From Deltaproteobacteria bacterium (GTDB lineage: Bacteria; Desulfobacterota; Desulfomonilia; UBA1062): a stretch of DNA of 52,999 nt. Of this stretch, positions 26,875 to 50,034 are shown one piece after another. The notes under the pieces were generated by a model. That model searched no databases. It had not been told where the DNA came from and saw only the letters and a list, made by a program, of their open reading frames with translations. The stretch covers positions 1-52,999 of the forward strand of contig WFSG01000017.1 of assembly GCA_015486075.1 (NCBI GenBank). Reading direction: 5' to 3'. The position numbers were made by a program, and so were the translations under genes. Every line of letters begins with the position of its first letter. The first letter of the stretch is position 1.

Positions 26875-27986
26875 CAAAATCACTCCGTTTGTCTTTAGCC
26901 ATTGCCTTGTGCTTCCTGGTTATTGCATCAAGCCCATCACGGGCATTGTCTGATTCGTTTATTACAGTACAAGGCATAGGATCCATAGAGCAGGGCAACA
27001 TGGCAAAGGCGGAGTACCTTGCACTGAACGATGGTTTCAATAAGGCACTCCTCACAAAGGCCATGCAGATGGTTCCAACATCACAAATACATGCGCTTCT
27101 AGAGGCGTTTCCCGAGTATCTATCCATAAGGGGTACAAGGGACATTACGCAGTACCAGATAACAAAGAGATCAGAGGAAAACAACGTACTTGTACTTACC
27201 ATAAACTTACAGATAGGCGATTCACACCTTAAGCAATGGCTTGACTCAAAGACACTTACAATACCAACTGAATCCAGACCAAGGATACTTGTTGCTATCT
27301 CTTATACACAGGACCAAGGAGAAAAACCGTATGCATGGTGGGAGCAGGTGGGTAAGTCCAGGTATTCCTCTTTTGAGAAAACCCTAGTAGACAGGCTTAG
27401 TATGTGGGGTGAGAATGTCTTCTCAACCCCTCCAGGCCAGGTAGCTTACAGCAAAGAAAATGGTGGTCTCGTGGATATGGCAAAGAACACAGGTGCCGAC
27501 ATTATCCTAACAGGTACAATGGCCTATGCTAGAGATGAACAGGGGCTTTACACCTGCACCCTTCATCTTGACATGATCGACACCCAAAAAGGCACAAAAA
27601 TGGGTTCGTGGAGCATAAAACATGTTTCTGACATAGCACCAAAGGACATGAATGCCTTTCTGTCAAAACAGTTAATTTCACCCATACGCGCAAAAATAAT
27701 AGGCGACATACTGGCGATGAATCCCGTGGTCAGCACTGAAACTCTCTGCATAGATGGTATCAGGGACTACACCACGTACCAAGCCATGGTAAATGCACTG
27801 GGTGCAATGGAAGATGTGCTAAAGATAACCCCGTGTAGCATCAAGCAACACGCCATATGTCATACTCTTACTATAAGGGGCAGTATCACATACATTCTAG
27901 AGGCATTGAAGGCGGAGCAGATAACGGACATGGATGTCGAAATCAAACCAGGCGGTGCATATATAAAGATCATAGAACACCCTTAG
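26871..27986 (+). CDS. Secreted protein with FlgT-N-like domain
   Basis: A 371-residue exported protein. Residues 1-26 form a signal peptide ending near SPSRALS. The next about 90 residues (FITVQGIGSIEQGNMAKAEYLALNDG...) resemble the N-terminal domain of the flagellar assembly protein FlgT and related periplasmic proteins. The middle (about 140-240) resembles a TolB-N/FlgT-M-like module (GADIILTGTMAY), and the end carries beta-rich repeats. FlgT itself is a flagellar basal-body H-ring component in Vibrio, but no flagellar genes lie here, so a general periplasmic or outer-membrane-linked role is more likely. It is translationally coupled to hfq. Function not established. Confidence 0.7.
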   Translation: MTKSLRLSLAIALCFLVIASSPSRALSDSFITVQGIGSIEQGNMAKAEYLALNDGFNKALLTKAMQMVPTSQIHALLEAFPEYLSIRGTRDITQYQITKRSEENNVLVLTINLQIGDSHLKQWLDSKTLTIPTESRPRILVAISYTQDQGEKPYAWWEQVGKSRYSSFEKTLVDRLSMWGENVFSTPPGQVAYSKENGGLVDMAKNTGADIILTGTMAYARDEQGLYTCTLHLDMIDTQKGTKMGSWSIKHVSDIAPKDMNAFLSKQLISPIRAKIIGDILAMNPVVSTETLCIDGIRDYTTYQAMVNALGAMEDVLKITPCSIKQHAICHTLTIRGSITYILEALKAEQITDMDVEIKPGGAYIKIIEHP

Positions 27987-27992
27987 GGGTGT
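27977..27992. other. Hairpin over convergent stop codons
   Basis: Perfect 6-bp inverted repeat ACACCC-TTAG-GGGTGT. It covers the stop codons of both the secreted-protein gene and buk, which overlap by four bases. No T-tract follows on either strand, so it is not a standard intrinsic terminator. Confidence 0.45.
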
Positions 27993-29068
27993 AGTACATT
28001 GCCAGAAGGATAATCAAGCAAACTCTCTTGCCTTGTTAGCACCCTTAGGCCACCTTCCACTAAAGCTGCTATCTCGTCTTCACCAGGGTAGACCATTATG
28101 TCTGCTATGAAACCTACCATGCGTGTTATCCATGACACTAGCATTTTGGAGTTAGCTAGCCCACCTGTGAGTACTATTGCATCCACGTTACCTTCCAGTA
28201 CCACTGACATGGCACCTATGCATTTTGAGGCTTGGTAGGCCATGGCCATGTAGACAGTCCTTGCATTCCTATCTCCCTGTTCGATCATGGCTTCGATCCG
28301 CTGTGCATCCTTGGTGCCAAGATAGGCAAAGAGCCCTGATCTATTGCTTAACTTGGACTTGATATAGTCTGGGCTTTTGCCCTGTGACAACACCAAGTCT
28401 ACTATGTCCAGGGTGGGCAGCTGACCTGCCCTCTCTGGCGTGAAGGGCCCTTCGCTCAGCCCATGGGTCGCATCTATCACCCTACCCTTTTTGTGTGCAC
28501 CAATGGTTATACCCCCTCCCATGTGAGCAACAACAAGGCTGGTTTTATCGTAAGGTTTTCCCAGTACCTTACATGCCTTTCTCGCAGCTGCCTTCTGGTT
28601 CAAGGCATGGAATGCGCTCTTTCTTTCTATGGAAGGAATACCGGTGACCCTGGCTATATCTTGTAATTCGTCAGTACTAGGTGGATCTACTACTACGGCT
28701 TGTTTGCCGTACATACCTGCTAATTTAAGGGTTATAGAAGGTCCAAGGGCAGATGGGTGCCAGCCAAACCTTCCCGAGAGCAAGTCATCGCACATCTTTC
28801 TGTTGATCCTGTACACCCCGGAGGGACCGGGGGCGCAAAGACCACCCCTGCTGACAAATATGTCTATATCTCCAAGGTCCACTCGCTCCTGGTACAGGGC
28901 ATGCATTATGCCTATTTCCCTTGTTTCAAGCTGTTCCTGTACACCCTGTCCGGCTAGTACAGTGCAAGGTATGTTCCACCTGCGGCTTAACTTACCCTCT
29001 TTGTAGAGGCCAAGTTTTGTCGAGGTTGATCCTACGTTTATGGCAAGTACACTATAATCTTCCCCCAT
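27983..29068 (-). CDS. buk: Butyrate kinase family acyl kinase
   Basis: Phosphorylates butyrate (or branched/aromatic acids) reversibly, making acyl phosphate and, in the catabolic direction, ATP. The 361 residues show the acetokinase-fold start VLAINVGSTSTKLGLY, VAHMGGGITIGAHKKG near residue 185, and the late motif LTGGLANSKMLV. Length and motifs fit butyrate kinase rather than acetate kinase (about 400 residues). It follows the phosphate-acyltransferase pair by five bases, so the three genes should make CoA-ester to acyl-phosphate to acid plus ATP. The true acyl chain is not evident. The ATG at 29068 has AGGG upstream. Confidence 0.92.
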   Translation of the reverse strand: MGEDYSVLAINVGSTSTKLGLYKEGKLSRRWNIPCTVLAGQGVQEQLETREIGIMHALYQERVDLGDIDIFVSRGGLCAPGPSGVYRINRKMCDDLLSGRFGWHPSALGPSITLKLAGMYGKQAVVVDPPSTDELQDIARVTGIPSIERKSAFHALNQKAAARKACKVLGKPYDKTSLVVAHMGGGITIGAHKKGRVIDATHGLSEGPFTPERAGQLPTLDIVDLVLSQGKSPDYIKSKLSNRSGLFAYLGTKDAQRIEAMIEQGDRNARTVYMAMAYQASKCIGAMSVVLEGNVDAIVLTGGLANSKMLVSWITRMVGFIADIMVYPGEDEIAALVEGGLRVLTRQESLLDYPSGNVLHP

Positions 29069-29073
29069 AACTT

Positions 29074-29979
29074 TTATCCCTGGGCTACCATTAACTTTGC
29101 CATGGCTATTTCTACTAGCTTTTGCTCACGCGTTACAGGAGGTGTATTTACTATGCATGGTGCTCTCATCCCTAGCACAAGCCCGGCAACTGACATGCCA
29201 CCCAGGAGAACAAGGAATTGCACGAAGCTTAGCCCTGCCTCGGTATTTGGTACTAGGTAGATGTCAACCTTTCCAGTAACATCGCTTGCAATGCCTTTTC
29301 TGGATGCAGCATTGGCACTCACTGCACAGTCTATGTCTATGGGACCGTCTATTATGACATCGCCGAACTGACCCCTCTCTCCCATCTTAGAGAGTACTGC
29401 CGCGTCCACAGTGGAAACAATATCTGGATTTACATATTCTATGGGTGAGAGTGCTGCAACCCTTGGGCATAGAATACCCATGGCCCTTGATAGTTCCAGT
29501 GCGTTCTCTAGTATACCTATCTTCTGCTTCAGGCTAGGCCTGTGGTTTATCATACCATCTGTTACCATGAAGTGTCCACCAGGTAGCCCCCCTTCCAAGA
29601 TAAAGGCATGGCTTGCTATCCTTGAACTGCCAGATAGAGCAGGATTGAGCATTACAGTGTCCCTAAAAGTGGTATTAAGCACATCCCCTTGCATAAGGAT
29701 CTGGGCCTGGTTTTCAAGGACCATTTCCACGGCCATTGAGAGAAGGGCCCCATCGTTGTTATCCATGCCCTCCACGCACTCAAAACCGAGCTCCTTTGCA
29801 TGTTCCCTTAATTCAGCTGTTCTAGGACCTGAAGTAAGAATGAGTGGTCTTACCATACCACCCACCCTTGGATCACAGAGGATATCCAGCACATAATGAT
29901 CACGTACCGGTGCCACCACCATGGTTGGAACCTGGTTGACTGAAAGCGCCAATTCCACAAGGGTACCCATGTGTCTCAT
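29074..29979 (-). CDS. ptb: Phosphate acyltransferase (Ptb family), paralogue 1
   Basis: A 301-residue protein of the phosphate acetyl/butyryltransferase family, which converts acyl-CoA + phosphate to acyl phosphate + CoA. It keeps the central family motifs: LMQGDVLNTTF, MVTDGMINHRPSL, ILENALELSRAMGI, PIEYVNPDIVSTVDAAVLSKM and IIDGPIDIDCAVS. The C-terminal motif usually reading SRxD, thought to contact CoA and phosphate, is replaced by NTPPVTREQK, and the GN-K segment before it by GLSFVQ. Its ATG overlaps the stop of the second paralogue as ATGA. It probably acts with that paralogue and with buk downstream. Confidence 0.85.
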   Translation of the reverse strand: MRHMGTLVELALSVNQVPTMVVAPVRDHYVLDILCDPRVGGMVRPLILTSGPRTAELREHAKELGFECVEGMDNNDGALLSMAVEMVLENQAQILMQGDVLNTTFRDTVMLNPALSGSSRIASHAFILEGGLPGGHFMVTDGMINHRPSLKQKIGILENALELSRAMGILCPRVAALSPIEYVNPDIVSTVDAAVLSKMGERGQFGDVIIDGPIDIDCAVSANAASRKGIASDVTGKVDIYLVPNTEAGLSFVQFLVLLGGMSVAGLVLGMRAPCIVNTPPVTREQKLVEIAMAKLMVAQG

Positions 29980-30887
29980 TGTGCAGCCTCCATTTTAAGC
30001 AACCTGGATACCACGACACCTAGTGCCACTTCACCTATCACAGACGTATGCACATCAGAGCGTGAAGGGATGATAACTGGTCCCCGGGAACTCAGGACAA
30101 GGGATCTTCTCGTAACATCCAGCATAAAATCTAGCTTCGATATTACGTTACCTGCGTCAAGGTCTGGCACGAGTATTACATGTGGCATGTTATCGAGCTC
30201 TATGCGAGTTTTACCATCACGTGATAGTAACATGTCAACCATTGAGAAGGCATCCATGACCCTGCATGCCCCGAGCTCTCGTCTTGAAGCGGCATCTTTA
30301 AGCATCTTTGCATGCCCAAGGGATTGGGGCTCAAGGTTTATTCCCGTGTAAGACGATAGTACTGCAACGCTTAGGTCCTTATAGCCAAGCAAGTCCATAA
30401 GAAAGACTGCATCGCGTATAATGTCCACTTTTGCAGTGTAATCAGGGGCTATGTTCACTCCAGTGTCTGTTATGGACACGAGGTGATCCACCCCGGGTAT
30501 ATCCCAGAGCGTATTGACACTTATGGTCTGCTTCTTCCCGAGGCTCCTTTCATTTCTTAGTATGGAGCGGTAAATAAAGGCCGTTGGGATATGACCCTTT
30601 ATCGCAAGATCAACCTCTGAGCCAAAGAGCATGGATATCCCCTTGTCAGATATCTCCTGGGGATCAGAGACATTTATTACCTCAACCTGGGATATATCAA
30701 ATTCTATCTCACCAGACAGCCTCTCAATAGCTTCCTTTTTACCTACGAGGTATGGGACCACATAGCCCTTGTCACGGGCAATCTTTACGGTGAGCAAGAA
30801 TTCCCTCTCCTGCGGGGCTAGTACTGCCATGCAAACCGCATTACCTGATGAAGCTAGATTGTCTATCTCCCGGAACTCCTTGATCAC
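29976..30887 (-). CDS. ptb: Phosphate acyltransferase (Ptb family), paralogue 2
   Basis: A 303-residue member of the same family as the next gene but divergent from it. The N-terminal half includes IKGHIPTAFIYRSIL and SITDTGVNIAPDYTAKVDIIRDAV. It lacks the VNPxxxSTxDAA and GPxxxDxA blocks seen in its partner (here NLEPQSLGHAKMLKDAA and an unrelated loop), yet retains the C-terminal AGNVISKLDF and PSRSDVH motifs that the partner has lost. The start is GTG at 30887 with AGG eight bases upstream; this AGG lies inside a strong hairpin. First gene of the ptb-ptb-buk unit, 70 bases after the RND pump gene on the same strand. Confidence 0.82.
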   Translation of the reverse strand: MIKEFREIDNLASSGNAVCMAVLAPQEREFLLTVKIARDKGYVVPYLVGKKEAIERLSGEIEFDISQVEVINVSDPQEISDKGISMLFGSEVDLAIKGHIPTAFIYRSILRNERSLGKKQTISVNTLWDIPGVDHLVSITDTGVNIAPDYTAKVDIIRDAVFLMDLLGYKDLSVAVLSSYTGINLEPQSLGHAKMLKDAASRRELGACRVMDAFSMVDMLLSRDGKTRIELDNMPHVILVPDLDAGNVISKLDFMLDVTRRSLVLSSRGPVIIPSRSDVHTSVIGEVALGVVVSRLLKMEAAQ

Positions 30888-30957: not shown

Positions 30958-33900
30958 TTATCTACGATGTCTAAGAGCATTTATGTCTCTTAGCATGGCA
31001 TACATGCAGGGTATCAGGACAAGTGTTATAAGAGTTGCGAAAAGAACGCCGAATCCAAGGCTTATGGCCATAGGTATGAGAAACCTTGCCTGCAGGCTCC
31101 TCTCTGTTATAAGGGGTGTCAAACCGAAAAAGGTCGTAAGTGTTGTAAGTATTACTGCCCTAAAGCGTAGTTTGCCGCCTTCTACTATAGCAGTATACAA
31201 GTCCATGCCCTTGGTCATGTTGTTATTTATCTCGTTTACAAGGACCAGGGCATCGTTTACCACCACCCCGGATAGGCCTATTATGCCGAACAGGCTCAGT
31301 ATGCTCAGGTTGTAGCCCATTATCATGTGCCCCCATATAGCACCCACTATACCAAATGGTATTGCAGTCATGATGATAAGGGGCTGTGCAAAAGAGTTAA
31401 ACGGAATGGCCAAGAGTACGTATATAAGAAAAATGGCTATGACAACACCCTTTTTCACATCTGCCATGGATTCTTTTTGCTCTTTTCCTTCTCCTGCCAT
31501 GGAGTATTTTAGGTCAGGGTAATGTTTCCTCAGCCCTGGTATTATTTTGTCCACTAGTATGCGTCTTAACTCGTTCGCATTTGCAACGCTCTCGTCTACG
31601 TCTCCATAGACCTCTATAACACGCAGCAGGTTGTGGTGTCTTATCGTGGTGTAGCCCCTTACTGTCTTAACCTTGGCCACCTCCTTGAAAGGCACCTCAA
31701 TGCCCTGTAATGTGCGTATGTGCATCCTGTCCAGACTCACAAGCAACCTTCTTTCATTGTCGGGATAGCGGACTAGCACCTTTACCTCATCTTTTCCTCT
31801 CTGTATCCTTAGGGCCTCGGCTCCGTAAAACGCACCCCTTACCTGGGAGGCTATGTCGTTAAGTTTCAATCCAAGCGCTTTCCCAGCATCCTTTAAGCTT
31901 ATTCGAATCTCTTGCTTGCCGGGCAAGAAACTATCTCCCACGTCAGACACGCCGGGGTAGGTTTCAAGCTCTCTTTTTAGCTCATTTACGCAGGATATTA
32001 GCCTCTTGCTATCCTTCATGGAGAGTTCTACGTCTATGGGTTTGCCTGTGCTGAACAATTCGCTTGTATACGATATATTCTCTGCGCCAGGTATAACGCC
32101 TGCCTTGTCCCTCCACATGTCTGTAAGCATCTGTGAACTTATACCCTTTCTCTTGTCTCCACCAATGAGCTGTACCATTATCTGCGCAACGTTGCTCCCA
32201 ACTGTTGATCCGCTTTCTGCTGGTCCATGCGACGGTAGTTGAAGCCCTATCAAGGATATACTGTACTTGAAAAGGGGCTCAGAACCTTGTGGACGCTTTG
32301 CGTCTTCCTTTCTTAGAACCTCGGTTGCAGCCTTCTCAATGTGGCTCGCCACCCTAATGGTACGCTCAACAGGAGTGCCAGCAGACAGCGTAAGGTCACA
32401 CCTCATAACATCCCCCTCTACCTTTGGAAAGAAGGTGAACTTGATTATTCCTCCACCCCATATACCAATGGTTATGAAAAGCACGGCAATAAAAAAGGCA
32501 AGAGTGGCATATCTCCACCTGAGGGAAAAGCTTATGAGCCTAGTGTAAGGGCCTTCTATAAACCTAGTCAGCAGCCTATCAACCCTCTTGCTCTCCTTAC
32601 GGGGTCTTACCTTTGTCCTAGCGAGGTGTACGGGTAGTATCAGGAGAGCCTCAAGTAAAGAACCAGTAAGTACAAGTATGACAACTATGGGTATATTCCT
32701 CATGAACTGGCCCATTATACCCGTTGCCATAAGTAGGGGCCAGAAAGCTGCTATAGTCGTAAGTACAGAGAATATTACTGCCTTAGCAACCTGACTGGTA
32801 CCTTCAACCGCAGCTTTCTCTGGATCCATGCCCTTTTGTCGCAAACGAAAAACATTCTCGCCTATTACAATGGCATCGTCAACCACTATACCCAGGACCA
32901 TTATGAAGGCAAAGAGGGATATCATGTTTATGGAGACGTTAAAACTGGGCAGTAGCCACAAACCAGTAGCAAAGGCAATGGGTATTCCCCATGATATCCA
33001 CCCGGCTAGCTTCCAGTTTAAAAAAAGTCCGAGGGTAATCACAACTAGTACCATGCCAAATGCCATGTTCTTCAGCAGAAGGTCCAGCCTGCTCTTAAGT
33101 ATGGAGGACATGTCAGAAAAGCTATCAACGGAGATGCCCCTTGGCAGAGAGGGCCTTATATTATTTATGTATGTCTTTACCTTGTCTGCAACTTCCAGAG
33201 CGTTTTGGTCTCCGACCCTATATACCATGATAATCACGGCTGGCTTGCCGTTGAACATAGCATACAGATCTGTATCAGCAAAACCTTCCTTCAAGTCTGC
33301 GATGTCTCCAAGCTTCACCACAGCACCCGATGGATCCGTGATTATAGGTATATCCCTGTACTCCTCTGCATGGTAGCGCCTACCTTTTGACCTTATGAGT
33401 ATCTCCTGTGAACTTGTCTTTATGCTACCAGCAGGAAGGTCCATTGCAGACGACCTGATTATTGACGCCACCTGGGGAAGGGTTATGCGATAGCGTCTCA
33501 ACGTCTCCTCAGGAATGTCAATGTGTATCTCCTCTGTACGTGACCCGTAAAGATCAACTAGGCTGATCCCTTTTGTGTTTGTCAGGTCATCCTTGATATC
33601 CTCTGCTACGTGTTTTAAGGATGCTTCTGGAGCATCTCCATACACTGCAACGCTTATTACCTGGGTACTCCTGGTAAGTTCCCTTACAATAGGCCTTTCT
33701 GCCTCTTGGGGTAGCGTTGTTATGCTATCTACCCTGGTCTTAACATCATCAAGCAACTTGGACGTGTCCCATCCGTTCATTACGTCGATGATTACAGTCC
33801 CCAAACCCTCTCTGGCTATCGAATTTATCTCGTCTATGCCATCAAGGCCAGATACCCTTTCCTCTATCCTGTCTATTATGGACTCCTCTACCTCGCTCGG

Positions 33901-34068
33901 AGATGCACCTGTATCAACAACCGTGATAATTATCTTGTCAGGTGTGACATCTGGGAATACCTCCACCTTCATGGTAAGTGCGGTAATTACACCCGCTGTG
34001 AGGACAAACAGCATGATAAGATTTGCGCTTACGTGATTATCAACAAACCATTTAAATATATACTTCAT
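30958..34068 (-). CDS. RND efflux pump, inner-membrane transporter
   Basis: A 1,036-residue proton-driven transporter of the hydrophobe/amphiphile RND family. It has the duplicated plan of two six-helix halves, each with a large periplasmic domain: first helix FVDNHVSANLIMLFV, periplasmic domain about 40-330, TM4 motif FAFIMVLGIVVDDAIVIGENVF with the proton-relay aspartates, and the matching second-half motif GIIGLSGVVVNDALVLVNEI. Substrate is not predictable; sequence is closer to multidrug/hydrophobe exporters than to metal pumps, since metal-binding methionine clusters are not evident. Third-to-last position in tetR-oprM-adaptor-pump; ATG at 34068, 32 bases after the adaptor gene. Confidence 0.93.
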   Translation of the reverse strand: MKYIFKWFVDNHVSANLIMLFVLTAGVITALTMKVEVFPDVTPDKIIITVVDTGASPSEVEESIIDRIEERVSGLDGIDEINSIAREGLGTVIIDVMNGWDTSKLLDDVKTRVDSITTLPQEAERPIVRELTRSTQVISVAVYGDAPEASLKHVAEDIKDDLTNTKGISLVDLYGSRTEEIHIDIPEETLRRYRITLPQVASIIRSSAMDLPAGSIKTSSQEILIRSKGRRYHAEEYRDIPIITDPSGAVVKLGDIADLKEGFADTDLYAMFNGKPAVIIMVYRVGDQNALEVADKVKTYINNIRPSLPRGISVDSFSDMSSILKSRLDLLLKNMAFGMVLVVITLGLFLNWKLAGWISWGIPIAFATGLWLLPSFNVSINMISLFAFIMVLGIVVDDAIVIGENVFRLRQKGMDPEKAAVEGTSQVAKAVIFSVLTTIAAFWPLLMATGIMGQFMRNIPIVVILVLTGSLLEALLILPVHLARTKVRPRKESKRVDRLLTRFIEGPYTRLISFSLRWRYATLAFFIAVLFITIGIWGGGIIKFTFFPKVEGDVMRCDLTLSAGTPVERTIRVASHIEKAATEVLRKEDAKRPQGSEPLFKYSISLIGLQLPSHGPAESGSTVGSNVAQIMVQLIGGDKRKGISSQMLTDMWRDKAGVIPGAENISYTSELFSTGKPIDVELSMKDSKRLISCVNELKRELETYPGVSDVGDSFLPGKQEIRISLKDAGKALGLKLNDIASQVRGAFYGAEALRIQRGKDEVKVLVRYPDNERRLLVSLDRMHIRTLQGIEVPFKEVAKVKTVRGYTTIRHHNLLRVIEVYGDVDESVANANELRRILVDKIIPGLRKHYPDLKYSMAGEGKEQKESMADVKKGVVIAIFLIYVLLAIPFNSFAQPLIIMTAIPFGIVGAIWGHMIMGYNLSILSLFGIIGLSGVVVNDALVLVNEINNNMTKGMDLYTAIVEGGKLRFRAVILTTLTTFFGLTPLITERSLQARFLIPMAISLGFGVLFATLITLVLIPCMYAMLRDINALRHRR

Positions 34069-38022: not shown

Positions 38023-41000
38023 TTAGTTCTGCTTCCAGTAGTATTTGTTTATGTTCTGGTTGGTGCTCACCGTGGTTGAATACACACCACCCTCTGTACC
38101 GACAACAACATGGGCGCCTGTCTTTGTCACCACTAACACGGGTTGTGACGGTATTCCTGAACCGATTGTCTTTGACCTGTCTTCCTTTGTTATGTTGCCA
38201 TCACCATTAAAATCTATAGCTGCATTGCCTGTTGTGTAGTCCAATGCATAGAGCCTCGCTGTGCCACTACCATGCTGGAAGCAAAGATCAGTAGTTCCAG
38301 AGCTAGACTCAACGCTGGGTGTAAAGGTCGTGAAGTATACAACCTTGTCGAATATAACAGGGGAAGACACTACCTTCTCACCCTGGTTTTCAAGGTTGAT
38401 ATACCATCCCATTCCATTGTCAATCGTCTCCCTGACAGAGGCTTTTTCTTCTTCTGTCTTTGTTGGATCCTGCAGTACATCAGATGTCACGTCCACAAGA
38501 TCAGACGGTGTAATCGTATCTGTATCATCGTTCCAGGTAGAAGGCCACTTGTTTTTTATGGCATAGAACTGGTTGGTGACACTTGTCTTCATGGGATCTT
38601 CCCTGTCGCCAGTCCCTATGTATACATAGTCACCAAATGTTTCTTGGGTTACTCCCGGGGCATAAAAGAACTTTTTAAGCTTGTCAGTACCTGAATTACC
38701 TGCACTGAAAAGTCTCCTTGCTTCCCACGTACCATCTTCATCCCTGTCATTGAATACAAAAAGGTTTCCACCCAAAGACGGCGCATATATGGTATCATCA
38801 AAGCCATCTGCATTACTGTCAAAGGAGGTAAGGTCAACTATACTATATACCATCTTGTCATAGTTGCTGTGATTGAAGTTTACGGTATCACACCGTGCTC
38901 CTGTTGCTGCATCAACTGCGTAGACAGCCCTACCTTTTGTATCACCTGAACCCGGATCTGTACTATCCTCGTTTGTATCATATCCTCCTGAGAGAAGCAG
39001 GACATCCCTTGTGCTACCGCCTGACTCCTTTATGGTACAAAAACGTGGTGTTGACCATGATTCTCCGAGTGTTTCCGCACCTAGAATATTAGGAGAAACC
39101 TTCCATGCAAAATTAGGCGATGAATAATCTGTTACATCCAGTGTATAGTATCCATCCCCTCCCCTTCTGAGACCAAAAATCACATAGGTATGCCCTGACG
39201 TTGTATAGACGACCGGTGTTCCATCCACGTAGTAATCGTGTTCCGAGTCTGCCCTCAGGTATTTAAGCCTAGGTACAAGGTCCCAGGGCACAAAGCACCA
39301 TTCCTCGCTAACCGTATCATCGGTCAAGTCGTTATCGGTTCCCTTGTCATCGTCAACGAAGCAATGCAGAAATCCATCGTTTGCCCCAACAAATATAACG
39401 TTCCTATGGTTGGCGTCATCATACAGAATAGCAGGCCTTGAATGCAAGATGTCTCCCAGCACCCATGTCCTTGCATCGGTTCCACCAGAGGTTGGATCGT
39501 AGATACCTTCTGCCCTTATGAAGTCCACTAGGTCATCCCTTTCAGATGTGGTTGAAAGACCAAGGTCTGCCGGCGAGATATTATCCTTGTCAAACAAGGT
39601 AAGCGTTGTACCAGTATTGTAGGTGTAGAAAAGTCTGGATGACTGGGTCAATAGTTCCTCGCCTGCACCGCCCTTCTCCACTTCCATGCCTTCAAGCCCT
39701 GTAACCGAGACCCAGCAAGAATGTGCACCCTCCTTTATTGCACCTGTCGAATCCGTGGCAATGTTGCCGTCCCTGTCTAAGAGCTCACCATCCTCGTTTA
39801 GTCCGAATTTCTTGAGATTCCCTTTCCACAGTCCAGAGTTGTCAGGAGAGAATATACCCAGGTAAACACAGTTACCCGCATAGGTCTTGTTCATCCTGCT
39901 TACAGGAACCACAGGGGCCACGAACTCTGAATTTACCTTGAGTATGCTACCTATTATCTTCTGGAATATATCGGAAAGGCTCTGCACCCCCTCTCCACCG
40001 GTATCCTTTGTGGTATAGTAATGGCCCTGGCCATGAGAAGCATCCGCTGTTTCTTCAAGGAGGGTATTGTCCGCATCAAATCCTACAGTGTAGGTTATTA
40101 TGTTTTGCTTGGCAAAGTTTGAGTTATTGGGATCATCAAATGAAACTCCGCCAGAGTCGTACAGTGCACCTCCCAGGAGATCTTCATCGTGAAGGAATTT
40201 TGCCACGTCGTCAAGATAATCGCTACCGTCGTAAGGGTAAGACCCTGGGTCATTACCATCTTTGTCGTAATCACCAATGGACTTGCCATTTATGTAATCA
40301 GGGCGGGTAAGGATGTCACCCTGGTCCTTTGTTGACTCGCCGTCGGTCATTATAATTACGTAATTCTTCTGGCATCTCCACTCAATAGCAGGAGGAAAGT
40401 CAGTGGCATAATCAACACCGGGATTCGCCCATGATGGCTTCCTGGCAAAGTAGAGGCCAGCCTCTGCCAGTGTCTCGGCAAGGGGTGTCCACGTGCTTGG
40501 CGTTATGGCATTGATCGCATTGTGAAGCGTAGTTTTGTCAGAGCCAAGTGGTGCTACCAAGTGTCCGCCTTGATCCTCGTTAAACACCATAAGACCAAAA
40601 CGAACACCATCTGTTGTGTCAATTAGGTCGTTTATAGTATCCTTTGCTATGTCTATCTTTTTTCTCTTTGTTGCACCCACAGTAGTTATGTAGTTCAGGT
40701 AATTGCCTGTCCTTAGCATGTAAGACCACCAACCACCACATGCATGCGAACCCGAGGTATATATTTTACCCTGCCAGTGCCCATTTGTATTTAGAGAGTT
40801 CCTTGCATCGTCGCATGCTATCTCGTCTGATTGTACTATGCCATCGCTTCCGATGTATGTAAACTTGGACCACCATGATCCAAAGAATGAGTAATATACC
40901 CACGAAGGGTCATAAGACCCGGAATAAGTGGTGGATGGGTCATAATCCACTGGTATAACATTTACCTCTTCATCCATGCTCCCGGAATTATCAAATATAA

Positions 41001-41130
41001 TAAGTACATTCGGTGGTACGTTGATTACACCACCTCCAAAAATTTCGGCGTCATCACCAAAAGCGTATGTTTGGAAGAATAAAAGGGTAAGAAAGACACA
41101 GGGTATTATAAGTTTTATTCTTTTACTCAT
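38023..41130 (-). CDS. pilY1: Type IV pilus tip-associated protein PilY1
   Basis: A 1,035-residue secreted protein that sits at the type IV pilus tip with minor pilins and influences pilus extension, adhesion and surface sensing. A signal peptide (1-25) is followed by a von Willebrand A domain with the metal site DNSGSM (residues 47-52) and ITYTVGFDAD. The C-terminal half (about 480-1000) is the PilY1/PilC beta-propeller, with propeller-like repeats and EF-hand-type loops DSNADGFDD and DFNGDGNITKED that would bind calcium. The ATG at 41130 has a strong GGAGG site and follows pilX by 19 bases. Part of fimT-pilW-pilV-pilX-pilY1. Confidence 0.93.
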   Translation of the reverse strand: MSKRIKLIIPCVFLTLLFFQTYAFGDDAEIFGGGVINVPPNVLIIFDNSGSMDEEVNVIPVDYDPSTTYSGSYDPSWVYYSFFGSWWSKFTYIGSDGIVQSDEIACDDARNSLNTNGHWQGKIYTSGSHACGGWWSYMLRTGNYLNYITTVGATKRKKIDIAKDTINDLIDTTDGVRFGLMVFNEDQGGHLVAPLGSDKTTLHNAINAITPSTWTPLAETLAEAGLYFARKPSWANPGVDYATDFPPAIEWRCQKNYVIIMTDGESTKDQGDILTRPDYINGKSIGDYDKDGNDPGSYPYDGSDYLDDVAKFLHDEDLLGGALYDSGGVSFDDPNNSNFAKQNIITYTVGFDADNTLLEETADASHGQGHYYTTKDTGGEGVQSLSDIFQKIIGSILKVNSEFVAPVVPVSRMNKTYAGNCVYLGIFSPDNSGLWKGNLKKFGLNEDGELLDRDGNIATDSTGAIKEGAHSCWVSVTGLEGMEVEKGGAGEELLTQSSRLFYTYNTGTTLTLFDKDNISPADLGLSTTSERDDLVDFIRAEGIYDPTSGGTDARTWVLGDILHSRPAILYDDANHRNVIFVGANDGFLHCFVDDDKGTDNDLTDDTVSEEWCFVPWDLVPRLKYLRADSEHDYYVDGTPVVYTTSGHTYVIFGLRRGGDGYYTLDVTDYSSPNFAWKVSPNILGAETLGESWSTPRFCTIKESGGSTRDVLLLSGGYDTNEDSTDPGSGDTKGRAVYAVDAATGARCDTVNFNHSNYDKMVYSIVDLTSFDSNADGFDDTIYAPSLGGNLFVFNDRDEDGTWEARRLFSAGNSGTDKLKKFFYAPGVTQETFGDYVYIGTGDREDPMKTSVTNQFYAIKNKWPSTWNDDTDTITPSDLVDVTSDVLQDPTKTEEEKASVRETIDNGMGWYINLENQGEKVVSSPVIFDKVVYFTTFTPSVESSSGTTDLCFQHGSGTARLYALDYTTGNAAIDFNGDGNITKEDRSKTIGSGIPSQPVLVVTKTGAHVVVGTEGGVYSTTVSTNQNINKYYWKQN

Positions 41131-41149
41131 GGCCTGCCTCCTAGGGAGT

Positions 41150-41578
41150 TTAATTTTTGGGAAATGCCTTCCATACGCCGACCTCTATTGTCTGCCCGCT
41201 GTCGGTGGAATCTATCCTGTAATAATTTGCGCTGAAGTTATTCACGCTAAAGCCAGAACCTATTGGAGGGTTGGTTATTTTGGTAAGCATAATGGTTATA
41301 TGGGTGTTTTTCAGCATGGAGGGTAGACTCGAAGAAGAATACGTATAGGTATTGTTCAGCGTAACACCTATGGTAGTCATGGCAGACACTGCATTTGCAA
41401 TGGCATAATCAACCCCACTCTCCGCTGTATAAAAGTCCTGCTTATACACCCTCTCGTTACCAATTATCCTTGTCTCTATGGTTGAGGAACTCATCACTGT
41501 GATGCCAATAATAATGGCTGAGACCAAAACTAGAAGTACAATCACCAGTATCATGCCATCATCTTTTTTGATTATCAT
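41150..41578 (-). CDS. pilX: Minor pilin PilX-like
   Basis: A 142-residue membrane-anchored minor pilin. The N-terminus MIIKKDDGMILVIVLLVLVSAIIIGI follows the PilX pattern of a short charged leader, glycine and a long hydrophobic helix (cut here: DGMILVIVLLVLV), then IETRIIGNERVYKQDFYTAESG, the conserved AAExG-like region of the family. The remainder is a small globular head. Starts with ATG at 41578 behind GGAG. It lies between pilV and pilY1, the usual order. Confidence 0.85.
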   Translation of the reverse strand: MIIKKDDGMILVIVLLVLVSAIIIGITVMSSSTIETRIIGNERVYKQDFYTAESGVDYAIANAVSAMTTIGVTLNNTYTYSSSSLPSMLKNTHITIMLTKITNPPIGSGFSVNNFSANYYRIDSTDSGQTIEVGVWKAFPKN

Positions 41579-41590
41579 GACCTGACTCCC

Positions 41591-41986
41591 CTACTTAATA
41601 AACGATATGGTAACACTGTGGGTATTACCTTTTTCCTGCCACGTACTCGTAACATCTATCTTGAGCACACCTGTTGAAAGCTGGGTGACTAGCCATGATA
41701 CGTTGTAAGTTCTGCCGAGATTTGATGTAATGGGGGAAGTACTATGCATACCAAGACCTAGGCTGGTGCTTGAAGAGGAAAGCGACTTAAGAAACTCTAC
41801 CTCGTCCTGTGCCAGGTTTACACCATCTGTCATATCCATACTGAAACTAGAGCCCTTCATGGCCTCAGACTGCATCTTGGCAACGCCCACTATTCCAAGT
41901 ACCAGTATTAGAAGTGCTATTCCCACCTCAATGAGAGTAAATCCTTTCTCTGCATCGCCCAATCTTGAGACCGTTTGTTTTCTCAT
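41591..41986 (-). CDS. pilV: Minor pilin PilV-like
   Basis: A 131-residue type IV minor pilin. The prepilin cleavage site is GFTLIEVGIALLIL, preceded by a 14-residue leader MRKQTVSRLGDAEK, after which the hydrophobic helix begins. The frame can be read 30 residues further upstream into pilW, but the ATG at 41986 has a GGTGGTG site and gives a normal leader. The PilV/shufflon-like family is suggested by VGVAKMQSEAM. Begins 16 bases after the pilW stop. Confidence 0.83.
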   Translation of the reverse strand: MRKQTVSRLGDAEKGFTLIEVGIALLILVLGIVGVAKMQSEAMKGSSFSMDMTDGVNLAQDEVEFLKSLSSSSTSLGLGMHSTSPITSNLGRTYNVSWLVTQLSTGVLKIDVTSTWQEKGNTHSVTISFIK

Positions 41987-42002
41987 TGTATCACCACCCT
42001 GT

Positions 42003-42650
42003 TCAGTTTCTCCTGTAGATCCTTCTTGTAAGTGTCCTTGTGATGTACTTGCCGGTGTCAGGGTCTGGCTGGTCACTTCTTGTCACTATTGTCACGACAA
42101 CGGACTTAACATTTCCTGATGAGGGTGACACCGAGTTGTTATTGTCATCAAGGTATGTGAAACCAAGTGTTGTAACATTTGTGGCTATTATCTGCGAATT
42201 TCTCAAGAGGTCTGTGCCATTCATCGAATATGTTACCTGCTCATCTGCATCTGCTGTATCCCCATCCCCATTGAGATCCATGGAGACGAATATGCTGGAA
42301 GATGAACTTCCCGAAGGTATTATACCTGCCGTGGATGACATGGCTGGATCACAACCAGCCATACGTATATCTTTCTCCATCATGTCCATTGCTGCCCTTA
42401 GGTCCTGTTGCATGGTAATTACTTTGTATTCCATGTGGGAGCTCTTGTACTGTGTCTGATAAGCCATGTACACAGCCGCCATGACCAGCATTGATAAAAC
42501 CAGGGCTATCATAAGCTCTACTAGGGTTACACCTGATTTATCAGCTACGCATGTGTATAGTCTGTACTTATTAGAAGAACGTCCATCATGGGCATTAGCC
42601 TGCGACAAGTAGCATAATCCAGCCTCTTTTCTTCTATTGGTCAATATCAT
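42003..42650 (-). CDS. pilW: Minor pilin PilW-like
   Basis: A 215-residue minor pilin with prepilin signature SGVTLVELMIALVLS, glutamate at +5, and the PilW-like continuation QQDLRAAMDMMEKDIRMAGCDP. The ATG at 42650 overlaps the upstream gene stop as ATGA. The leader before the cleavage glycine is about 40 residues, longer than the usual 6-30, and no other Met codon lies between; a TTG at codon 15 could shorten it. A long leader is unusual but not unknown. Confidence 0.83.
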   Translation of the reverse strand: MILTNRRKEAGLCYLSQANAHDGRSSNKYRLYTCVADKSGVTLVELMIALVLSMLVMAAVYMAYQTQYKSSHMEYKVITMQQDLRAAMDMMEKDIRMAGCDPAMSSTAGIIPSGSSSSSIFVSMDLNGDGDTADADEQVTYSMNGTDLLRNSQIIATNVTTLGFTYLDDNNNSVSPSSGNVKSVVVTIVTRSDQPDPDTGKYITRTLTRRIYRRN

Positions 42651-43075
42651 TGTATGCTAACACTCCCACCTGGTGATATATAGATTGTCTTGGTATCACC
42701 TGTATCAGTACTGGTTATTACAATATTACCAGGTCTTGTACTTATTCCTCTGCTGTCAAAGCCTGTTGTACTCATGCCACTTGCGGTCGAGCATACAGAG
42801 GAGATTACCACGCCATCTGGCATGTTCTGAGTTGGTATGAGGGTCCCAGAACTGTAAGTATTATTATCCAGGTTAAAAGATATTGTAATAGTGGTGTTTT
42901 CTTTGACTGCCTCTCCTCTCACCTGCTGAAGATGATAGAACACAGTCCTTGATGCAGACTTAAGACGTTGCTTAGATACCCAGGCGCCCATGTCAGGTGC
43001 TGCCAATGCAGCACCAATGGCGATTATTACAATCACGATTATGAGCTCCAAGAGGGTAAAACCTTTGTCTTCCAA
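42647..43075 (-). CDS. fimT: GspH/FimT-family pseudopilin
   Basis: A 142-residue type IV pilus pseudopilin. The very short leader MEDK precedes GFTLLELIIVIVIIAIGAALA, the hydrophobic segment with +5 glutamate, followed by a GspH/FimT head domain (SKQRLKSASRTVFYHLQQVRGEAVKEN). The start is a TTG at 43075, supported by a GGAGG site five bases upstream. First gene of the minor-pilin cluster, 42 bases after comEC; probably co-expressed. Confidence 0.85.
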   Translation of the reverse strand: MEDKGFTLLELIIVIVIIAIGAALAAPDMGAWVSKQRLKSASRTVFYHLQQVRGEAVKENTTITISFNLDNNTYSSGTLIPTQNMPDGVVISSVCSTASGMSTTGFDSRGISTRPGNIVITSTDTGDTKTIYISPGGSVSIQ

Positions 43076-47144: not shown

Positions 47145-47596
47145 TTACCTTTACTCGTCCTCATGATCATGACTGATGCGTCTTCACCAGTATCCTCATA
47201 ATAACCCTTCCAAGTACAGACGTATTCGAAACCCATTGAGGTGTAGAGCGACTTGGCAGCTATATTGTTCACCCTTACCTCTAGCAATACAATACTCTTA
47301 GCCGTTGACCTTGCATATGCCGCCATTTCTTCGACAAGCCTCCTCGCAATCCCTTTGTGTCTGAAGCGTGGATGCACAGCGAGGTTCAGTATATGCAAGA
47401 CATCCTTCATACCCCTTGACAGACAATAGCCCACCACACTATCCTTGGTTCTTGCTGCAAGTGATTTGCTTCCATAACCGGTATAAACGGCAAGAAATGT
47501 GTCTATGTCCCAGGGCTCAGGGAACGATAGTTTTTCTATTTCCATCATATCGGAGAAATCAGACAGCCGCACATCTGATATGATCACCAGATCCAT
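47141..47596 (-). CDS. rimI: Ribosomal-protein-alanine N-acetyltransferase RimI-like
   Basis: A 151-residue GNAT acetyltransferase. The acetyl-CoA motif is LAVHPRFRHKGIARRLVEEM, followed by VNNIAAKSLYTSMGFEYV and YYEDTGEDASVMIM, which fit RimI more than other GNATs. RimI N-acetylates ribosomal protein S18 in some bacteria. The start is placed at ATG 47596, within the last 13 bases of the PTS IIC gene; a longer reading to 47713 would overlap IIC by 130 bases and lacks a ribosome site. ATGA coupled to pyrK. Confidence 0.88.
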   Translation of the reverse strand: MDLVIISDVRLSDFSDMMEIEKLSFPEPWDIDTFLAVYTGYGSKSLAARTKDSVVGYCLSRGMKDVLHILNLAVHPRFRHKGIARRLVEEMAAYARSTAKSIVLLEVRVNNIAAKSLYTSMGFEYVCTWKGYYEDTGEDASVMIMRTSKGK

Positions 47597-48261
47597 TCCA
47601 AGACAACCACTGTAAGTAGGCCCATCAAGAAAGACATTATGTCCATTTTTAACGAGCGTCCTGTCCTCACTAGGGAAGCAAGTCCTATGGTTATGCTGAG
47701 ATAAGGAATGCATTTCAGTGCACTGTTCATGTCACCTGGTATGTGCGGTATTATGAAGTGCACCAGTGCAACAACCGTCAGTGAAAGGACTAGTATGGCC
47801 AAAAAAATCCTGATAAGTGTGAAAAGTAATGCCTTGGCCAGGTTCCTTCCAATTAACCTATCCAGCTCCTCGCTCTTCTGCATGTCCATCAAGGACTCGT
47901 TGGCCTTCCTCTGATAAGTATCTATTGCCCTTCCAATGAAGACCGAGGGTATACTTAGTACCAAAGAGAGGCCCACGGCAGCGTTTACATCCATGGTCGA
48001 TGCTGCATAGCAAGCAACAGGCGTTGCAACCGCAGCACAAAAGGACTCGTCTTCCGGGAGAAAGGAGCCTACAGGAGGGCTGTTAAGCCACAGCAGTTCT
48101 AGACATGCACCGGTAAGTAAACCTGTTTGAACCTCTCCAAATACAAGGCCCAGGATGGGCGCCATTATTATAGGTCGCGATACCATGAACTGGAACACGT
48201 AGGCCCTGTCCATCCAGAGTATTGAACTTATTATGCTACTAGCAACCACCCTGAATATCAT
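47584..48261 (-). CDS. Mannose-class PTS system IIC-like membrane protein
   Basis: A 225-residue hydrophobic protein with the mannose/sorbose-family IIC signature GLVFGEVQTGLLTGACLELLWL and PPVGSFLPEDESFCAAVATP, then four or five further helices. Full-length IIC of this family is slightly longer (about 250-260). IIC is the sugar channel, which normally needs a IID partner; no IID gene is found in the window. Together with IIA and IIB and rapZ it may therefore act in regulation rather than sugar uptake. ATGA overlap with IIB upstream. Confidence 0.85.
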   Translation of the reverse strand: MIFRVVASSIISSILWMDRAYVFQFMVSRPIIMAPILGLVFGEVQTGLLTGACLELLWLNSPPVGSFLPEDESFCAAVATPVACYAASTMDVNAAVGLSLVLSIPSVFIGRAIDTYQRKANESLMDMQKSEELDRLIGRNLAKALLFTLIRIFLAILVLSLTVVALVHFIIPHIPGDMNSALKCIPYLSITIGLASLVRTGRSLKMDIMSFLMGLLTVVVLEWIW

Positions 48262-48749
48262 AACTTTATCATTTGAAGAATGTCTTTTGCGTTGATTTCC
48301 CTCTCTCTAGGCACAGACTGCACTGCTACGTAGACTCCTTTGGATATAAGGGACTTTATTATCTCGATATCCTTGTTGTTAACCCAGACGGAGAAAGAAA
48401 GCTGGTAACTCCCATCGTGCACCTTGAGGTTACCTATGTTCAGTCTGTTAAAGGTAATGCCCTTGTTGTATATGTTAAACGCATCCACCAATGATGAGAC
48501 AATGACAAGAACCCTCTTGTCTTTGAACAGGGTGTCCCCTTCGAGCCTAGGGACATCATCGACTGAGCTCACCTTGAATCTTATCCTGTCTGGCAGTGCC
48601 ATCTCCATAATAGACTTCTGGAACTCATCAGAGCTTAGACGGTCATTTACAATTATGACCCCATCTGCGCCTAGATATGGTATCCACGCCTCGAGTATCT
48701 GGCCGTGGATAAACCTGTCATCTACCCTTACCAGTCGGAGATCCATCAT
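48258..48749 (-). CDS. Mannose-class PTS system IIB component
   Basis: A 163-residue cytosolic phosphotransferase protein with RVDDRFIHGQILEAW, carrying the phospho-accepting histidine of sorbose/mannose-family IIB, and IIVNDRLSSDEFQKSIMEMALP. The ATG at 48749 overlaps the IIA stop as ATGA (a second ATG directly follows). Phosphate passes IIA to IIB; the next acceptor would be a sugar via IIC/IID, unclear here without IID. Part of rapZ-IIA-IIB-IIC. Confidence 0.88.
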   Translation of the reverse strand: MMDLRLVRVDDRFIHGQILEAWIPYLGADGVIIVNDRLSSDEFQKSIMEMALPDRIRFKVSSVDDVPRLEGDTLFKDKRVLVIVSSLVDAFNIYNKGITFNRLNIGNLKVHDGSYQLSFSVWVNNKDIEIIKSLISKGVYVAVQSVPREREINAKDILQMIKL

Positions 48750-49156
48750 ACCTTGGGTGGTGCAGACAGTATCTCGGATGCAATAGAGATATTTCTGCAA
48801 GCGTTATTTTTTAATATCTGCGCTAGTTCTCCCAGCTTTTTGCCCTCTCTTTTCGTAAGAGCATATATCACCATGGGAAGGTTAACGCCTGTTACCACTT
48901 CTACCCTGTCCTGCTCTAGGAAAGAGAGAGATATATTGGAAGGGGTTCCACCAAACATGTCCGTAAGTATCATCACCCCATCCCCTGCATCCACCTTCTT
49001 TATTGCCTCCCTCAACATCTTCCTTAGGCCCTTTGCACTTTTATCTTGGGCAAACGTACATGCCTCGCACCTGTCTACAGGACCCACTATCATACATGCG
49101 GTCTCAAGGATCGTCTTAGCAAGCTCACCATGTGCCACTATTACAATACCTACCAT
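48746..49156 (-). CDS. Mannose-class PTS system IIA component
   Basis: A 136-residue EIIA-Man fold protein with phosphoryl-accepting His in VGIVIVAHGELA, and LTDMFGGTPSN, the typical second motif. The ATG at 49156 has a GAGGG site five bases ahead; an earlier TTG is less likely. It begins eight bases after the rapZ stop. In deltaproteobacteria rapZ often sits with such IIA genes, pointing to a regulatory PTS branch. HPr and enzyme I genes are not in the window. Confidence 0.9.
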   Translation of the reverse strand: MVGIVIVAHGELAKTILETACMIVGPVDRCEACTFAQDKSAKGLRKMLREAIKKVDAGDGVMILTDMFGGTPSNISLSFLEQDRVEVVTGVNLPMVIYALTKREGKKLGELAQILKNNACRNISIASEILSAPPKV

Positions 49157-49164
49157 CTTATCCC

Positions 49165-50034
49165 TCAATCGAGATCCCTGTGCCTGACCTCACAGCTAAA
49201 ACCTGCATCCCTGATCATCTCGCCTGTCTCCTCCGCAATGCTAACTGACCTGTGCCTACCGCCTGTGCAGCCTATTGCTATAGTAAAATAAGATCTTCCT
49301 TCTCTTCTCACCCGTGGTACAATAAACCTGACAAGTCCTCTCCACTTCTCTATAAAATCCTTGTAATCAAGGGTGGAATGTATGTAATCCTTTACCTCAC
49401 TGTCCTTGCCTGTCTTGTCTTTGAGTGCATCCACAAAGTACGGGTTAGGAAGAAAACGTACATCCATAAGCATATCCGCGTCTATTGGTATACCTTTCTT
49501 AAAGCCAAAAGAGATAACCTGTATATACATATCTCTTGATTTGTCAAGGCTAGATGCAATCTCAGCCACCTTTGCCTCGAGTTCGTGGATATTCATGTGG
49601 CTTGTATCTAGCACATAGTCTGCCCTGTGCTTAATCTTGTCCATTATTGAGATCTCGGCATCTATGGCAGATATGAGGTCAGGATAAGTATCACTCAAAG
49701 GATGCCTTCGCCTCGTCTCTTTGAACCTGTTAACAAGGGAATTCTTGTCAGCCTCGAGAAAAATCAGCTTGAATTCTCCAACAAGGGAACGAAACAGGCC
49801 AAAAGCCTTTGGAACCCTTTCCACAAATTGGCCTGCCCCTCCCCTTACATCCATCCCTATGCAAAGTTTAGATATATTTAGATAGGCAAAGTCATATACC
49901 TCGGTCAACTTCATGAGAAGATCTATAGGTATATTGTCCATACAGAAAAAACCGGCATCCTCCATTACCTTCAATGCCGTGGATTTTCCTGAACCAGACA
50001 GGCCTGTTATGATTACTACAAGTGGACTTCTCAT
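49165..50034 (-). CDS. rapZ: RapZ-family RNase adaptor/nucleotide-binding protein
   Basis: A 289-residue protein with an N-terminal P-loop, ITGLSGSGKSTALKVM (residues 9-24), and the C-terminal RapZ motif FGFKKGIPIDADMLMDVRFLPNPYF (start FGFKKGIP) and IGCTGGRHRSVSIAE. In Escherichia coli RapZ directs a small RNA controlling GlmS synthesis to RNase E; in other bacteria the role is less certain. It sits at the head of the PTS IIA-IIB-IIC genes. A glmS-like gene is in the window 26 kb away; no direct link is shown. ATG at 50034. Confidence 0.94.
   Translation of the reverse strand: MRSPLVVIITGLSGSGKSTALKVMEDAGFFCMDNIPIDLLMKLTEVYDFAYLNISKLCIGMDVRGGAGQFVERVPKAFGLFRSLVGEFKLIFLEADKNSLVNRFKETRRRHPLSDTYPDLISAIDAEISIMDKIKHRADYVLDTSHMNIHELEAKVAEIASSLDKSRDMYIQVISFGFKKGIPIDADMLMDVRFLPNPYFVDALKDKTGKDSEVKDYIHSTLDYKDFIEKWRGLVRFIVPRVRREGRSYFTIAIGCTGGRHRSVSIAEETGEMIRDAGFSCEVRHRDLD

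Follow-up and report, generated by a model that had tools for sequence, protein, structure and literature searches.

Why should an operon with a single butyrate kinase gene contain two genes for proteins of the phosphotransbutyrylase (Ptb) type? The question is raised by a 52,999-nucleotide stretch of contig WFSG01000017.1 from a Deltaproteobacteria bacterium (assembly GCA_015486075.1; hereafter the window), in which two Ptb paralogues, P2 and P1, are transcribed in that order ahead of the butyrate kinase gene (Buk). The labels follow an earlier reading of the window (the original prediction), in which the genes were paralogues 2 and 1; P2 is the upstream one. That reading noted an ATGA stop/start overlap between the paralogues and 5 bases between the P1 stop and the Buk ATG, both of which are exact. 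It also proposed that the two proteins have lost complementary motifs and form either an obligate heteromer with a composite active site or a catalytic plus a regulatory subunit. We put at about 0.8 the probability that P2 and P1 are subunits of a heteromeric Ptb-type acyl-coenzyme A (CoA):phosphate acyltransferase, the sole complete active site of which would be composite. This interpretation draws on sequence and published structures, and is supported by the partition of residues between the two genes, the conservation of each half, synteny and the single origin of each clade.

Complementary residue loss in P1 and P2

Both paralogues belong to the Pfam family PTA_PTB (PF01515; 89.9 bits for P1 and 37.6 for P2, cut-off 24), and Buk passes TIGR02707 (388.9 bits, cut-off 289.1). 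Neither paralogue reaches the Ptb equivalog TIGR02706, scoring 177.8 (P1) and 130.7 bits (P2) against a cut-off of 410.5. The crystal sequence of Clostridium acetobutylicum Ptb (CaPTB, 7vg9) aligns with both paralogues over nearly their entire length (4.1e-39 for P1, 2.9e-27 for P2). An AlphaFold model of the window P2 (43 alignment rows; predicted local distance difference test, pLDDT, 92.0; predicted template modelling score, pTM, 0.91) has 7vg9 as its best structural match (Z 34.2, root-mean-square deviation 2.3, 288 of 301 residues aligned; Foldseek 3.2e-27). Together these full-length alignments and the P2 model exclude the reading in which the missing motifs are merely shifted: when the alignment suggested as a check by the original prediction was made, the lost residues proved to be replaced in register.

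Residues are numbered below as in CaPTB (7VG9) unless marked otherwise. The window P2 retains K97, T102, N247, K251, S275-R276 and D278 in its own numbering, corresponding to K97, T102, N250, K254, S279-R280 and D282 of CaPTB. The window P1, whose own numbering here coincides with that of CaPTB, retains E181, N184-P185, S189-T190, G212-P213, D217 and K228, and has lost N250, K254, R280, D282 and the domain-I KG lysine K97, which is replaced by Q. The motifs named in the original prediction thus stand, with the reservation that its list was slightly incomplete, omitting the loss of K97 from P1 and of E181 and K228 from P2.

The same partition extends across the family. We compared 23 canonical Ptb-type proteins, 62 P1 and 64 P2, after removal of matches shorter than 230 amino acids (aa) and of identical copies. 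Class was set by profile and coincides with gene order (first P2, second P1) in every adjacent pair examined; the second gene of one locus (L119), for which the canonical profile scores slightly better (239 vs 222), was counted as P1 by position and falls among P1 in the tree. In canonical, P1 and P2 proteins respectively, K97 is present in 23, 0 and 63, N250 in 23, 1 and 64, K254 in 23, 0 and 64, R280 in 23, 1 and 64, D282 in 14, 4 and 64, and S279 in 21, 10 and 47. Conversely, E181, P213, D217 and K228 are each present in 23/23 canonical proteins, 62/62 P1 and 0/64 P2, and G212 in 23/23, 62/62 and about 5%, so that the claimed complementarity holds well beyond the window. A homomeric Ptb carries two residue sets on one polypeptide, the first comprising KG, GNxxxK and SRxD and the second E181, GPxxxDxA and K228; P1 lacks the first and P2 the second.

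Of 19 positions invariant in the canonical proteins, 4 are lost in P1, 8 in P2 and 7 kept in both; none is missing from both, and the two proteins jointly hold every one. Thinning at 70% identity (19 canonical, 40 P1, 32 P2) left the partition unchanged. In P1 the columns of the cis cleft lie between the 25th and 86th percentiles of column entropy and those of the trans set are at zero; in P2 the reverse is seen. The strong evidence is this pattern, in which each clade has one half-set fixed and the other has drifted until it varies like ordinary positions.

Fit to published dimer contacts

According to the literature consulted here, the Ptb and Pta enzymes known so far are homo-oligomers. In their dimers, the active cleft sits between a subunit's two domains and adjoins the second domain of the partner. 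In MtPta, the CoA contacts comprise S128, N279, Y282, K283, Q286, T298 and C312 from subunit A and Q244 and K257 from subunit B (Kim and Kim 2021, PMC9706017; here and below, this paper and PMC7902834, PMC4992975, PMC5606693 and PMC6827300 are cited from excerpts). The same paper describes D217-K254 of CaPTB as an inter-subunit salt bridge, K254 also being substrate-binding. Independently of MtPta, donation by the opposing monomer was shown in BbMaeB, where T614, N718, Y721, K722 and other residues act in cis and Q683, the equivalent of Q244, comes from the other chain (PMC7902834).

Because the spacings are equal (13 residues from Q244 to K257, 35 from Q244 to N279 and 4 from N279 to K283), MtPta Q244, K257, N279 and K283 map to CaPTB 215, 228, 250 and 254; S128 would correspond to T102. 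Since the published contacts map onto these positions, the set retained by P2 is that of subunit A and the set retained by P1 that of subunit B, the cis and trans roles being assigned by analogy with the published structures. On this basis a P2-P1 dimer would contain exactly one whole site, with the other site lacking both halves. A P1-P1 homodimer would have no site with K254 or R280, and a P2-P2 homodimer none with a partner's K228 or D217. The D217(P1)-K254(P2) pair is available in 62/62 pairs and its mirror image in 0/62. The obligate heteromer of the original prediction is therefore supported by a residue-by-residue fit to published dimer contacts, insofar as sequence can speak to it.

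We infer heteromer formation, activity and substrate as follows. P2 would supply the interdomain cleft, with the KG lysine, N250, K254, S279, R280 and D282. P1 would extend its second domain over the dimer interface, D217 forming the salt bridge to P2 K254, and K228 and position 215 making CoA or acyl contacts in the P2 cleft. The quasi-symmetric second site, made of the P1 cleft and the P2 second domain, would have lost both halves and be dead. The composite site would convert acyl-CoA and phosphate to acyl phosphate, from which the adjacent Buk would generate ATP, releasing the free acid; the pathway could also run in reverse. The substrate would be some C2-C5 acyl group, with acetyl among the candidates. 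Coordinates of the genes and motifs are collected in the table.

Table. Coordinates, in the window, of the cassette and of the codons proposed to form the composite site
Feature	Position	Strand	Description
P2 (upstream paralogue)	29976-30887	-	GTG start, 303 aa, first operon gene; proposed subunit A (catalytic cleft)
P1 (downstream paralogue)	29074-29979	-	301 aa, second gene; proposed subunit B (trans donor)
Buk, butyrate kinase	27983-29068	-	361 aa, ATG at 29068, third gene of cassette
ATGA stop/start overlap P2/P1	29976-29979	-	
P2 codons S275-R276-S277-D278	30054-30065	-	SRxD motif; MtPta S309-R310
P2 codons N247...K251	30135-30149	-	GNxxxK motif; MtPta N279, K283
P1 codons G212-P213-x-D215-x-D217...K228	29296-29346	-	GPxxxDxA block and following lysine; include the MtPta Q244 position and the K257 equivalent, predicted to be trans-donated (roles from published structures)

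At P1 codon 215 (29335-29337), the equivalent of the acyl-contacting MtPta Q244 and BbMaeB Q683, Asp is found in 57/62 P1, whereas canonical Ptb has Ala, Ser or Gly and either Ala or Gly persists in the basal pairs. Asp215 may shift the choice of substrate.

Among known systems, the homo-oligomeric Ptb enzymes (CaPTB 7VG9, Listeria 3U9E/3UF6, Enterococcus 1YCO) share the full-length fold, the cleft residues and the Buk gene partner. They differ in that each CaPTB subunit carries both halves, so that both dimer sites can be complete, whereas the P2-P1 pair has them divided between two genes. A distant fold relative, isopropylmalate dehydrogenase, appears at rank 50 (Z 13.5) in the structure search with the P2 model, and IDH belongs to the same distantly related two-domain fold family. 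In IDH3, the alpha cleft and the beta small domain form the active site and the mirror arrangement a pseudo-site (PMC6827300); the reaction and cofactors are different, and the mirror sites of IDH3 act as allosteric or pseudo-allosteric sites. By extension, the dead mirror site of the P2-P1 pair might be kept as an allosteric pocket, in which the P1 cleft would bind CoA, acyl-CoA or another effector and gate the composite site, with P1-specific Asp215 giving an unusual substrate preference; we regard this combination as unlikely. Residues that recur in the P1 cleft are Q97 (48/62), P280 (50/62) and Q or E254 (54/62). The PTA domain of MaeB, in the excerpts available, likewise has a PTA fold that is missing catalytic residues, takes part in a fixed partnership and has an opposing-monomer residue (Q683) in the acyl pocket, but it is one homo-oligomeric domain acting as an acetyl-CoA sensor.

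Distribution and history of the gene pair

A search with the P2 alignment found 56 loci in a named genome collection, mostly in Syntrophales-type and other Deltaproteobacteria metagenome-assembled genomes (MAGs); further loci are labelled Desulfotomaculum, Syntrophomonadaceae, Firmicutes, Acidobacteriota, Dehalococcoidia and Kiritimatiellae, although MAG labels may be wrong. P1 directly follows P2 in 52 of the 56, a recurrence that rules out chance or an assembly oddity. Of the remaining four, two stop at a contig end (L069, where the second gene is partial, and L070) and two have a P2 that is itself fragmentary (L072, L074). Buk comes next in 49 of the 52 pairs; one of the others (L047) is at a contig end, and in L039 and L048 there is sequence beyond P1 with no butyrate kinase match in it. 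When 297 genomes of the phylum were searched with a P1 profile, 28 matched, of which 16 hold P1-type genes (17 in total), each adjoining P2. Eleven of the remaining 12 have a canonical single Ptb, and the last (G024) only a 912-residue frame with a partial match. Neither P1 nor P2 was found intact and on its own in any of the 56 loci or the 297 phylum genomes. The pair's presence in related genomes, which the original prediction had suggested looking for, is thus well documented.

In a quick tree of 91 rows, P1 forms one clade (Shimodaira-Hasegawa-like approximate likelihood ratio test, SH-aLRT, 99) and P2 another (SH-aLRT 100), with matching inner order, and P1 and P2 distances are correlated (r = 0.84, 32 loci). 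Since a basal group of five pairs is already split, the split predates the diversity sampled. Support for the root branches of the two clades is 33, too low to place P1 and P2 as closest kin. These data suggest a history in which a homodimeric Ptb was duplicated, the copies suffered complementary loss, and the heteromer became obligatory and co-inherited.

Some loci depart from the simple cassette. In L029, P2-P1-Buk is followed immediately downstream by another P2-type gene (L029:3097-4188), which extends to the end of the contig. Two genomes have two separate PF01515 gene pairs each (G205, contigs C13 and C233; G333, C20 and C59), like the two clusters of Syntrophus aciditrophicus. Butyrate kinase is split over two frames at L021:7816-8878 (in the same genome as L013) and in L038, L042, L043 and L061; in L043 P1 is also broken into two frames. 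Breaks of this type may reflect either assembly error or a pseudogene.

Neighbouring genes were scanned for a substrate clue. Among 20 of the 156 flanking open reading frames (ORFs), no recurrent family was found except a LytB-S1 protein at two loci. In the window, the upstream neighbour of P2 is an RND-pump-like gene (30958-34068, by eye), ending 70 bases before P2. Farther away, judged by eye from ORF starts, are a type IV pilin-like gene run with a large PilY1-like protein at its end (38023-43075) and mannose-type PTS-like small genes beside a RapZ-like ATPase gene (47584-50034).

Alternatives, physiology and significance

Several points weigh against a heteromer with a composite site or limit the case for it. 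The zero overlap between the invariants lost in P1 and in P2 is only marginal by a hypergeometric test (0.085 for full invariance, 0.057, and 0.043 at an 85% threshold). The pattern used to find loci contained KG[HQ]IPT, so that retention of K97 and T102 in P2 was partly selected; N250, K254, R280 and D282 were absent from the search patterns, and P1 was never selected in the pattern-based locus search. For K132-D261, the other interface bridge of CaPTB, P1 has the positive and P2 the negative residue in only 25/62 pairs; the mirrored arrangement occurs in 0/62, and the bridge is rare in canonical Ptb and absent from the window (L and D). The TP0094 dimer is described with domain I as the interface, unlike PgPta, BbMaeB and CaPTB, in which, as far as the excerpts go, it is domain II. 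A same-family locus, L019 (on the same contig as L012), happens to have P2 and P1 in frame, and the model of this read-through chain had its best structural matches among Ptb chains and did not place the halves confidently (pLDDT 75.8, pTM 0.50), so that it counts neither for nor against the heteromer. It was built from 4 fused rows only, as MAFFT mixed the halves in 99/105 rows when separate P2 and P1 rows were aligned to the fused chain. Finally, in S. aciditrophicus extracts Pta was low or undetectable and the cluster proteins were scarce (PMC4992975).

The clearest competitor is a P2 that makes acyl phosphate alone, with P1 a pseudo-enzyme that stabilises or regulates it and gives no active-site residues. 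P2 does retain the S and R of SRxD, which are essential by mutation in Pta (TP0094 S314A and R315A have 0.30% and 0.07% of wild-type activity), and MaeB offers the precedent of a PTA domain turned sensor (PMC7902834). However, a scaffold would not need D217, K228, E181 and GP of P1, which are invariant in 62/62 although P1's own cleft has drifted, and a P2 homodimer would have to dispense with trans contacts, K228 and D217 being lost in 64/64 P2. The catalytic-plus-regulatory alternative of the original prediction accordingly fits less well than its heteromer, and we judge a passive P1 improbable. The same MaeB domains, which are non-catalytic and sense acetyl-CoA, invite a more radical view in which neither protein is still a phosphotransacylase and the two instead sense or bind acyl-CoA/CoA, regulating Buk or something else. 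The scores far below the Ptb equivalog cut-off and the low Pta activity of S. aciditrophicus extracts would suit it. Yet N250, K254, R280 and D282 are invariant in 64/64 P2, and the host genome offers its sole Buk no candidate source of acyl phosphate other than the pair. In addition, S. aciditrophicus crotonate-coculture extracts contained 0.18 U/mg Pta where the partner archaeon was below detection, and the S. aciditrophicus genome reportedly encodes no other Pta (PMC4992975). We consider a sensor very unlikely.

Tandem duplicates with divergent specificity are common, and the genes could in principle encode two independent homomeric enzymes with different substrates, left in one operon by chance of duplication. 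Against this, each paralogue lacks residues invariant in all 23 canonical Ptb, and an intact lone copy was found at none of the loci or phylum genomes surveyed; two such independent enzymes would be surprising in the extreme. A hidden intact enzyme was also sought. The host genome (2.3 Mb, listed as 100% complete) has two PF01515 matches, P1 and P2, one PF00871 match, Buk, which is its sole acetate/butyrate kinase family match, and no PduL; no Ptb or Pta was found in it beyond the pair at E up to 10. A composite site formed by P2 and P1 therefore remains the reading we prefer.

Since the host genome holds seven POR-gamma and seven Succ_CoA_lig (ADP-forming acyl-CoA synthetase type) matches, the host probably has ketoacid oxidation and another acyl-CoA-to-ATP route. 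The pair or pairs are the only PF01515 genes in 14 of 17 pair-bearing genomes tested; a canonical enzyme is also present in three (G303, G178, G086), and stands alongside the pair in 3 of 9 genomes reached through named loci. Because some genomes hold both, the pair is not merely a Pta substitute. S. aciditrophicus has two clusters of buk with two pta/ptb genes (SYN_00653/00654/03090 and SYN_01210-01212), likened to ours from their published description as excerpted, and in Smithella M82 a single buk accompanies two ptb genes (PMC5606693), matching L049. James et al. 2016 (PMC4992975) noted the two S. aciditrophicus clusters and the scarcity of their products, measured up to 0.19 U/mg butyrate kinase and up to 0.18 U/mg Pta in some extracts, and concluded that ATP is made by Acs1. 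Given the scarce products and the Acs1 conclusion, the route through the pair may be of small importance in that organism or used only under some conditions.

Clusters of two ptb genes and buk were thus already known in Syntrophus, and the split site is the new part: the excerpted descriptions of the Syntrophus clusters mention neither split motifs nor a heteromer, and we found no report of a heteromeric Ptb/Pta or split site in the titles and abstract beginnings of the open-access literature searched. If the proposal is correct, the pair would illustrate cleanly, in nature, how duplicates can lose complementary parts of a shared active site, and would explain why syntrophic and related anaerobes have two ptb genes per butyrate kinase. 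It would also counsel caution in inferring or testing Ptb/Pta activity from single genes where the ATP-forming route is debated, as in Syntrophus.
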